Origin: Bernardetia sp.
Lineage (GTDB): Bacteria > Bacteroidota > Bacteroidia > Cytophagales > Bernardetiaceae
Length of the DNA stretch: 64,000 bases
Reading direction: 5' to 3'
Assembly (NCBI RefSeq): GCF_020630935.1
Contig: NZ_JAHDIG010000010.1
Span: 1 to 64,000 of the forward strand
Position numbers and translations under genes: made by a program. This document shows positions 32,802-36,006 of this stretch, in pieces (position 1 is the first letter of the stretch; the number at the start of each line of letters is the position of its first letter). A model generated the notes under the pieces. The model saw only the letters and a program-made list of their open reading frames with translations. It had not been told where the DNA came from and searched no databases.

Positions 32802-33824
32802 TTACAAACAAGCACAACCAAATAAGTCCATACTATCTTTCCATAGATAAACGAAATCCCCATTTTGATTTATAAAAATTATGCCTCTTGATGGTGTATC
32901 TAGTTTATCATTTATTGGAAAAGTGTCTGCATAAATGAAATATACATTTGTTGTTCCTTTTAGGCGTGCAAACGTTTTTGATAAGTGTGAGCTACTAGGG
33001 CAATCGTAGTAACACTCTTTAGGAGAAAGACTGTTTCTAAGCAGACTGTCTATTTGCAAATTTCTTTCATATACCAAGTCTATTTTGAGTTTACTTCCAA
33101 GCAAAACACTATCTGCTAGATTAGGCTTTGCATCAAAAGGATAGAAATAATATGGTTCACATTGGTCTATGCCAACACCAAAGTTTGTTATCTTGGCTGA
33201 TTTGTGTCCTTTTGTAGTGTAATAATGAATAGTAGGTGTACCTTTGCCTTCATAAATAGAATCTAAAATGGTAGGATAAAATATAATTTTTTGGTTTTCG
33301 TCTGGAATATAATCTGTATCTAAGCCGTTTACTAACTGTCCTTCTAATGAAATATCTGTAAAAGGCTTCTCGTGGTCTCTATCGCTAAAGACTATATTTG
33401 CAACTACTCCAATATGAGATTTATCAAGACGAAATATTGGAAATATCGGTTGCTCAATAGTTAGCTCTGAGATATTGATTTTCTTTAGCTCCTCAATGAA
33501 AGCTTTATTATTCTCACTTAGCTGATTTGATTCAAGAATATTATCTAAATATTTTGAAATGACTTCTTGAGAAGGATAATGTAACTTCCTGTATTTTTCA
33601 CAGATATTACCTGTAGTATCAATGATGAGACTTTTTTCCTTTATTTTTTTAGTGTCTGCTGCTACTCTTGTAATAGACTTTTCATATTCTCTCTCAACAT
33701 CTTGAAAAGTAATGGTATCATTTGTTTTCTCTATTGTACTATCTGAATTATTCTTAGGTTGGCAAGAAGCTAACAAACAGCTAATTAGAATCAAGAAAGA
33801 TATTATATTTTTTGAATTAGTCAT
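32802..33824 (-). CDS. Lipoprotein of unknown function
   Basis: 340 residues. Signal peptide with lipobox LLASC (Cys21), then a Ser/Asn/Thr-rich linker and a soluble body with repeated Asp-Ser motifs but no recognised domain. A central region has beta-rich segments (VVANIVFSDRDHEKPFTDISL, given here in part) and the C terminus has several Tyr/Cys pairs (CYYDCPSS, DLFGCACL). Probably outer-membrane or periplasmic. It follows the Hsp70-like membrane protein gene on the same strand with a 19-nt gap, so the two are likely one operon. Confidence 0.75.
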   Translation of the reverse strand: MTNSKNIISFLILISCLLASCQPKNNSDSTIEKTNDTITFQDVEREYEKSITRVAADTKKIKEKSLIIDTTGNICEKYRKLHYPSQEVISKYLDNILESNQLSENNKAFIEELKKINISELTIEQPIFPIFRLDKSHIGVVANIVFSDRDHEKPFTDISLEGQLVNGLDTDYIPDENQKIIFYPTILDSIYEGKGTPTIHYYTTKGHKSAKITNFGVGIDQCEPYYFYPFDAKPNLADSVLLGSKLKIDLVYERNLQIDSLLRNSLSPKECYYDCPSSSHLSKTFARLKGTTNVYFIYADTFPINDKLDTPSRGIIFINQNGDFVYLWKDSMDLFGCACL

Positions 33825-33843: not shown

Positions 33844-36006
33844 TTATTTCACAAAAACCTGTGTACTATCTTTCAAGTTTTCAAGTACGATGTCGCTTCT
33901 TCGGATTGTTCCATCAGCTTCTTTATAACTTTTCCTATAAAATCTATATTTAGTTACTCGGTGGCGAGCATTTTCAGGAGGCATAAAATCAATAATTTTT
34001 TCTTCTAAATTTATCTTGCCTTTCCACGTCGTGAAACGGTCTTGAGGAATAGAATACGTAAAAATATATTCTCCATTTTCTTCCCTAACAGCTAAAATTT
34101 CTATTCTACTGTTTTTTACTCGTTGAAGTTCTGTATGATATACTGTTCCTGCATACTTTCCAATGAGCTGTTCTACATTTTCTATTTTATCACTACTAAA
34201 ATCTTCTTGCTTTGTCTTCGAACTCATGCTAGGAAATGAAATAGGAGAGTTAGGAATTTGTGTCATTAAAATAATTCCGACAGCCAAAACAGCAAATATA
34301 ATCCCTGCTACCAAAAAAGCTCCTATTCCTTTAGGTTTACTGATTTTTATTTTACGTTTGTCTAAGAGAATTTCTATATCTGATTTTGAGTAATGGAGTT
34401 TATCGCCTACTTCCAAAATTTCTTGAAACTGTTCTTGAGAGAGCATTTTTCCTTTTAGTCGGTCTTGAAGCTCAAAGTCTAGAATTTCCTCTCTTGTTTG
34501 TAATTTTAAATTTCTCTGACGGAAAAAAATATTGAGTTCTTTTTCAGAAAAACCGTTCTGTTCTGCTACTGCCAAAAGTTGTGGATAGTATTCACTAGGA
34601 AAAAAACGCCCTACTTTGCGCCTATCTACATTAGTTTCTAAAAGTTCACGAAGAGGCAAAACTCGTATGCCTACAGTTTGTAAACGCTGTTCTAGTTCAG
34701 CCTCGCTAATGTCAAGTTCTCTTGCCTTAAGACGCAAATTTTTCATTTGGTCGGTAGAAAGTAGTCCATCTTTAGCAAGTTCTTGTGCATGTTGTAGCAA
34801 AATATCTAAAGCAGGCAAGACCTCTAAGCCATTTTGTTTGATAACTTTATCTACTGTTTCTTGATTCCAGTCTTGAGAATTAATGTGTAATGTCCATATT
34901 TTTTTTGGTAAATAATATTGATAGACCAAAAACTCTGGAATGGCTTCTTTTATGAGCGTTTCTTCTACCACCATAGGCTCATCTTTTTCTTGTTTGTCTA
35001 AGTAACTCTTCATTCCCCTCAAAGCAAAGCGTGTGGCTTCTTCATCAGTAAGAGTATGTACTATATAGCCTTTATGTGTAAGCAGTGCTTTTAATTCTGA
35101 CTGTAAAATCAAGTCTCCAATAAGATAGATTTCTGAATCATTGGGCGCATGTTCTACCACTCTTTCCGAAAGTTCTCGGCTCTGAATACGTAAGAGTTCT
35201 ACTTCTTGAGAGTTTATGGTTGCTGTTGCACTTGTTCCGTTGGAAAGCCGTACAGTAATAAAGCTTTGTTTTTCCTCTCTAATCTGATTGAGCCATTCTT
35301 CTGCTCTGTGTGAATGTAGCGCAACTTGCTCATCCAAATCTACACCTGTCGGGACTTGTCTCATCGCTCGTTGAAGAACAAACTTTACTAATTCTCTTTC
35401 AAAATCCCAATCAGAGACATCTTGTAGTTTGTTTTGGATAAATGTGCTGTCTTCTGTGCGAGTGAGCATAATTCTTTCTCCAAAGCTTTCTATAAAAGTA
35501 AGAGGAGATTTAGAGGCTTGTAATCTAAGATTTTTTCCATCTATGATAGCATCTAAATAAGATAGTGGAGCAAGTGGATGAAATCCTTTCTTTATAAAAT
35601 AAGCTGTAAACTTATCTATTATTTTTTGAGAAAAAGCAGGCGAAAAAACGCATAGAATAGGAATTACTCCTTGAAAATTGGGAGACAGACGTTCAAATTC
35701 TAATTTTATATTTTCAATAATACTGTCAAATAACTTTTCGTAAGGGTGCGAAGCTCCAAGCCAGTCAAAGGTCTTTTCTTTTTCCATTCCATACGCAGGA
35801 TGCCTTAAAGCATTGACAGAAGGAGGCAAACTCTCATAATATTTCTTTGAAATAGGTTTTATTTGAGTATCAATTTCAAAAAAAAGTTCTACACGTTCCT
35901 TTGCTTCATAAGGAATAGAAAGTAAGTTTTGAGAATTATAGAAAGCAGCACTACAATATTCTTCAGTAATGAGAAAGCAAATAGTAGAAGACGAATGCGT
36001 ATCCAT
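33844..36006 (-). CDS. Membrane protein with decayed Hsp70-like N-terminal domain
   Basis: 720 residues, not assigned to a named family. The first 345 residues follow the Hsp70/actin fold in order: FIESFGERIMLTR at the place of the second phosphate loop, DWDFERELVKFVLQ and VDLDEQVALHSHRAEEWLN as in the DFDxxLV...A-E-xxK stretch of DnaK, VRLSNG, and LIGDLILQSELKALL...DEEATRFALRG as in the adenosine motif GGxSRxPxV...PxEAVAxGAA. The Gly-rich phosphate loops are gone, so ATP use is doubtful. Then helical units near 435-545 (ELDISEAELEQRL, GFSEKELNIFFRQR, HYSKSDIEILLDKR), one TM helix (559-581) and a 139-residue tail. It precedes a lipoprotein gene by 19 nt. Confidence 0.75.
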   Translation of the reverse strand: MDTHSSSTICFLITEEYCSAAFYNSQNLLSIPYEAKERVELFFEIDTQIKPISKKYYESLPPSVNALRHPAYGMEKEKTFDWLGASHPYEKLFDSIIENIKLEFERLSPNFQGVIPILCVFSPAFSQKIIDKFTAYFIKKGFHPLAPLSYLDAIIDGKNLRLQASKSPLTFIESFGERIMLTRTEDSTFIQNKLQDVSDWDFERELVKFVLQRAMRQVPTGVDLDEQVALHSHRAEEWLNQIREEKQSFITVRLSNGTSATATINSQEVELLRIQSRELSERVVEHAPNDSEIYLIGDLILQSELKALLTHKGYIVHTLTDEEATRFALRGMKSYLDKQEKDEPMVVEETLIKEAIPEFLVYQYYLPKKIWTLHINSQDWNQETVDKVIKQNGLEVLPALDILLQHAQELAKDGLLSTDQMKNLRLKARELDISEAELEQRLQTVGIRVLPLRELLETNVDRRKVGRFFPSEYYPQLLAVAEQNGFSEKELNIFFRQRNLKLQTREEILDFELQDRLKGKMLSQEQFQEILEVGDKLHYSKSDIEILLDKRKIKISKPKGIGAFLVAGIIFAVLAVGIILMTQIPNSPISFPSMSSKTKQEDFSSDKIENVEQLIGKYAGTVYHTELQRVKNSRIEILAVREENGEYIFTYSIPQDRFTTWKGKINLEEKIIDFMPPENARHRVTKYRFYRKSYKEADGTIRRSDIVLENLKDSTQVFVK

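Follow-up and report, generated by a model that had tools for sequence, protein, structure and literature searches.

A maintained one-pass membrane protein of Bernardetia with a degenerate Hsp70-like domain: a candidate scaffold or receptor

What a membrane protein might do with an Hsp70-like domain that seems to have lost its loops for ATP is the question raised by a gene of Bernardetia sp. found in a stretch of 64,000 nucleotides (the window; contig NZ_JAHDIG010000010.1, positions 1 to 64,000), the features of which are collected in table 1. Among pseudoenzymes, kinases are well studied and Hsp70 proteins much less so. When searched as a single sequence against Pfam, NCBIfam, PADLOC and the PDB, the 720-residue protein, N-domain included, gave no match, the PADLOC search returning no model of a known anti-phage defence protein, and a limited literature search found no description of the family. 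Orthologues occur in each of the six further genus genomes (77–83% identity). The dN/dS values among them, which are rough due to the high dS, are approximately 0.1 overall and 0.05–0.17 by region (near 0.1 for the Hsp70-like domain, 0.05–0.09 for the helical part and 0.09–0.17 for the periplasmic part). With orthologues in every genome of the genus and low dN/dS, the gene is under purifying selection and is being maintained, not decaying.

Table 1. Features of the gene, of its neighbour and of related loci (positions refer to the window unless a locus handle precedes them).
Feature	Residues	Position	Strand	Basis
Whole gene: degenerate Hsp70 NBD, helical repeats, TM, periplasmic beta domain	1-720	33844..36006	-	720 aa ORF
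Hsp70 nucleotide-binding-domain homologue, ATP motifs lost	1-345	34972..36006	-	hhalign with controls, joint alignment, fold search of low-confidence model
Place of phosphate-1 loop (ICFLITEEYCSAA versus Hsp70 GIDLGTTNSCVAV), motif lost	9-21	35944..35982	-	joint alignment
Place of phosphate-2 loop (ESFGERIM versus DLGGGTFD), motif lost	173-180	35467..35490	-	joint alignment
DWDFERELV, aligned with Hsp70 GGxDFDxxLI	199-207	35386..35412	-	hhalign alignment
Place of adenosine motif (VGGxTRxP and DEAVAxGAA)	296-331	35014..35121	-	alignment
Three in-register 53-residue helical repeats	397-449, 450-502, 503-555	34342..34818	-	autocorrelation with shuffles
Single TM helix, positive-inside, N-terminus predicted cytoplasmic	~561-583	34258..34326	-	hydropathy and flank charges
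Predicted periplasmic beta domain	~612-720	33847..34173	-	sister-genera profile match, AF2 strands, fold search
Lipoprotein gene, 340 aa, lipobox LASC, 19 nt downstream of the target		32802..33824	-
Family f3 fusions: degenerate Hsp70-like domain, Hanks-type pseudokinase, TM, periplasmic beta domain		L048:2712-5039, L025:1155-3803, L026:954-3290, L027:1532-3343
Stand-alone Hsp70-like gene near Ser/Thr kinase, GtrA-like and PP2C genes, same layout (family f4)		L049:3-6268 and L113:3803-11161

The descent of the N-domain from Hsp70 was addressed by profile comparison. A profile of 18 N-domains of the family aligned from one end to the other with the nucleotide-binding domain (NBD) of a varied set of 13 Hsp70s, with DnaK, HscA, HscC and YegD of E. 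coli among them (hhalign in global mode, 1–355 to 1–393, E 9.5e-8). The score was 41.5, column shuffling (n = 100) giving 2.8 ± 1.9 (maximum, 10.3) and reversal of the profile 4.8; in local mode the corresponding values were 44.0, 15.1 ± 2.5 (maximum, 23.6) and 16.9. Leaving out the stand-alone relatives of family f4 (see below) gave a score of 25.1 (shuffle maximum, 13.0). The link is strong only when a diverse, enlarged family profile is set against a diverse Hsp70 set: genus-only and early profiles matched weakly, that of the genus alone not significantly, and the larger ones were colinear. No family member is above the curated Pfam cut-off for Hsp70, one f4 protein giving a sub-threshold, colinear match (261–332 to 267–338, E 0.11), and the family profile matched none of MreB, FtsA, GspL, HofM, Ppx and unrelated proteins with hhalign. 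In the alignments, DWDFERELV is opposite DnaK GGEDFDSRLI, the helix pair and VRLSNG fall in Hsp70 subdomain IIB, and residues 296–331, IGDLILQSELKALL...EEATRFALRG, are opposite VGGQTRMPMVQ...DEAVAIGAA. The stretches that a first-pass annotation of the window had read in DnaK order are, thus, at the right Hsp70 places, beyond what shuffling and reversal yield, and profile comparison with controls supports Hsp70 descent of the domain. A match to a mitoribosomal protein, obtained at 4.7e-4 when an early profile of the family was run against the PDB with hmmsearch, was rejected as spurious, involving a helical stretch.

Structure prediction adds less. The AlphaFold model of residues 1–346, obtained with three close sequences as input, has a pLDDT of 37, and its order of strands and helices is, at this low confidence, that of the Hsp70 NBD. 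In a fold search with this model, 49 of the 50 best PDB matches were Hsp70-family, MreB/Mbl or ciliary central-pair chains, the best of all having an E value of 8e-4 over 286 columns and a TM-score of only 0.2. The full-length AF2 model, also from three close sequences, is fair for the helices and for the beta domain at the C-terminus, while its N-domain has a pLDDT of approximately 25; the PDB search with this model returned no Hsp70 folds. Since the N-domain pLDDT is 25–37, the models do not establish the Hsp70 fold, and the search with the N-domain alone agrees with Hsp70 descent in a supporting, not decisive, way. As a check, the predicted structure of residues 1–345 put forward with the first-pass annotation neither refutes the reading nor proves it.

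The absence of the Gly-rich ATP loops, also claimed at first reading, is confirmed by the joint alignment. LITEEYC takes the place of the phosphate-1 loop DLGTTxS, the EPTAAA connector is lost and the Lys lobe deleted; of the adenosine motif GGxxR only the first Gly (G297) is kept, family-wide. At the place of the phosphate-2 loop a series of erosion is found, from DAIGGTY in L025, which is half-eroded with respect to DLGGGTF, to DALGKTY in L048, QSIGEQA in L026 and ESFGERI in the window protein. Thus, the N-domain resembles the Hsp70 family (DnaK, HscA, HscC, YegD) in aligning with the whole NBD, but differs from it in having neither phosphate loops, connector, Lys lobe nor most of the adenosine motif. 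Furthermore, the C-terminal substrate-binding domain of Hsp70 is missing, and the 53-residue helical repeats, a transmembrane (TM) helix and a periplasmic beta domain are found instead, with no Pfam match. From the loss of the motifs, normal ATP binding and hydrolysis would no longer be expected of the N-domain, while residual nucleotide binding is possible in some members, given that G297 is kept and that one relative has a GGT remnant. A bacterial family seems, therefore, to have been caught at several stages of the loss of the Hsp70 ATP site, yet under purifying selection, and this stepwise loss in maintained genes suggests that the fold is retained for a purpose different from chaperoning driven by ATP. 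In the homologue of genome G007 (L051:4555–6387) the whole IIB region is gone with the TM helix and beta domain kept, which appears to represent a further decay of the Hsp70 fold.

The remainder of the protein corresponds well to what had been read from the window. The three helical units are a tandem repeat in register, with an autocorrelation of 88 as opposed to a maximum of 11 in 500 shuffles; each repeat forms approximately three helices in the AF2 model (pLDDT ~60–78) and would be cytoplasmic, as would the N-terminus. The window protein has one TM helix, with approximately 137 residues outside, C-terminal to it; the 12 relatives of families f1 (that of the window) and f3 that were examined have one TM helix each. 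The annotated combination of an Hsp70-derived domain devoid of phosphate loops with a single TM helix is sustained by profile comparison with controls, by the joint alignment and, weakly, by the fold search. The periplasmic domain has AF2 beta strands (pLDDT ~50–75) and is common to the sister genera within f1 (hhalign Prob 92) and, weakly, to f3; its fold matches in the PDB search with the full-length model are weak and lipocalin-like, with E values of at least 0.05. The C-terminal beta domain and the one TM helix were seen in every examined member of f1 and f3.

Distant relatives were found by profile searches only within the same order, namely in genus g4 and genome G007 (both of f1), in four genomes of f3 and in six of f4; the remainder of a set of 395 genomes drawn from the class yielded none. 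The chain rests on profile E-values, being 4.6e-19 from the window protein to f3 and 9e-17 from f3 to f4. Two weak hits in the phylum, a ferredoxin/PAS-type protein in G822 and a transposase-like protein in G856, look like false positives. The f3 proteins carry a Hanks-type kinase domain after the Hsp70-like domain and before the TM helix, i.e. where the window protein, which has no PF00069 match in Pfam, has its helical repeats. PF00069 is matched above cut-off in three of them (L048, L025 and L027; E 1e-14 to 1e-18, best 1.3e-18) and below it in L026 (E 1e-5). In all four, YKTLKPENI-type and ASG-type motifs are found where HRD and DFG are expected; the beta-3 lysine is kept and the alpha-C glutamate seemingly so. 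With the HRD and DFG aspartates lost and the activation segment deleted, these domains are, by sequence, pseudokinases. PknB/PD-T4-6 matches in L010 were discarded, being at a low-complexity TM flank and not in a kinase domain. The Hsp70-like proteins of f4 stand alone and have no TM helix. Near that of L049 are genes for a kinase (PF00069, 1e-39) and a PP2C phosphatase (PF13672, 5e-16), an arrangement found again in L113, and the kinase is active-looking at both loci. The groups separate in the family tree, which fixes neither the root nor the sequence in which kinases were gained or lost. These pseudokinase fusions and kinase/phosphatase neighbours, invisible in a reading limited to the window, are the most telling context.

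Taken with the sequence of the window protein, they make it reasonably probable that the latter is a one-pass inner-membrane scaffold or receptor in which a dead Hsp70 NBD would act as a docking platform. As the ATP-binding motifs are lost and the counterparts in cousin species also contain a dead kinase, the protein is probably not a chaperone but a scaffold or signalling component assembled from former enzymes. With a Hanks-type pseudokinase between Hsp70-like domain and TM helix in the sister family, the architecture reads as that of a receptor Ser/Thr kinase with the enzymatic parts dead or replaced, and the 'adaptor or receptor' role attributed to a chaperone-derived protein in the first-pass annotation would be of this kind. 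In such a protein the periplasmic domain would sense or bind an envelope component, and the dead Hsp70 and repeat (or pseudokinase) part would offer a cytoplasmic platform for protein docking. The docked partner would probably be an active Ser/Thr kinase/PP2C pathway or a real Hsp70, switched or recruited without ATP turnover by the platform itself. Naming a kinase as the partner is guesswork, because no gene next to the target is conserved across the genus genomes and the kinase genes present in them above the Pfam cut-off are unlinked, none adjoining the target in the window genome.

It has also been considered, as a tentative extension, that a receptor class encountered to date in one bacterial order may have arisen from a YegD-YegI-like pair of Hsp70 and membrane kinase, the ATPase domain of an Hsp70 and a Hanks kinase, both dead, being fused as a signal-relay scaffold and helical repeats replacing the kinase in the Bernardetia-like genus. 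In E. coli, yegD (Hsp70), yegI (inner-membrane Ser/Thr kinase) and pphC (PP2C phosphatase) are clustered, as in the f4 neighbourhoods, and the f3 proteins join Hsp70-like and kinase-like parts in one membrane protein; however, YegD is a separate protein with its ATP motifs kept, and the window has neither a kinase part in the target nor a linked kinase or phosphatase of such type. The dead-kinase fusions and the f4 neighbours may, nonetheless, hint at the purpose of the poorly understood YegD-YegI-PphC association. L071, from an f4 genome (G013) in which a search found no degenerate form, encodes a 418-residue YegD-like Hsp70; its ATP loops are intact and it lacks a substrate-binding domain. 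A fusion of a Hanks-type kinase and an Hsp70 domain is on record for Pirellula (PMC1262709); in the available excerpt of that report the order is reversed, the Hsp70 domain being C-terminal, and neither lost ATP motifs nor a TM/periplasmic part is mentioned. The f3 relatives also resemble EssB/YukC of type VII secretion in being one-TM membrane proteins with a dead kinase domain (PMC12599244), although no Hsp70-like domain is reported for EssB/YukC and a kinase domain is absent from the window protein.

A platform of a different kind, or an assembly protein, could be envisaged, similar to GspL of type II secretion or to PilM/PilN of type IV pili; the protein would link machinery in the cytoplasm with a complex of the envelope and owe its Hsp70 resemblance only to the fold shared by the superfamily. 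GspL (EpsL) does combine a degenerate actin-superfamily cytoplasmic domain, a single TM helix and a periplasmic domain, and its cytoplasmic domain is cited as an unusual member of the actin-like ATPase superfamily that binds the ATPase GspE (PMC6233222). This explanation is unlikely, since no Pfam match to type II secretion families was obtained, Hsp70 matched the family profile whereas E. coli GspL and HofM did not, and the relatives carry a pseudokinase; moreover, the periplasmic domain of GspL is ferredoxin-like, and the genes near the target vary, look unrelated and include none for secretion or pili.

An atypical membrane Hsp70 or co-chaperone with a non-canonical nucleotide site, recruiting the DnaK of the cell, would account for the Hsp70 homology of the N-domain and for the half-kept phosphate-2 loop of L025. 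Precedents are Ssz1 and Sse1/Hsp110, Hsp70 homologues outside the ATP-driven substrate cycle, which bind ATP but hydrolyse it little or not at all (PMC8476630). They are, however, soluble eukaryotic proteins with ATP binding kept, whereas here phosphate-1, phosphate-2, the connector and nearly all residues of the adenosine motif are gone, the Lys lobe is deleted and there is no substrate-binding domain, so that this alternative, too, has a low probability. Convergent pattern matching by an unrelated alpha/beta fold, for which the lack of a significant match with single sequences and the genus-only profile and the poor AF2 confidence might speak, is very improbable in view of the full-length colinear profile alignment with its controls, the eroding phosphate-2 intermediates and, in the low-confidence model, an Hsp70-like order of secondary structures and a fold search selective for Hsp70/MreB.

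Returning to the scaffold or receptor, the lipoprotein gene had been proposed for phylogenetic profiling together with the target. The gene does lie 19 nt downstream in the window, but the adjacency is not conserved: it is found in only three of the seven genus genomes, the target being in all seven, and the identity of the lipoprotein is 45–48% as opposed to 82–83% for the target in the same genomes. The phylogenetic link fails, and an obligate partnership is ruled out on this distribution. The lipoprotein (window:32802–33824, L089:6769–7779 and L091) is fast-evolving and of no known family. Genes for 7TMR-DISM/SpoIIE-type phosphatases are often numerous and their proximity may be a coincidence; one is located 6 kb downstream of the target (window:25351–27582), and another directly precedes the homologue of genome G009 (L030:2899–5151).
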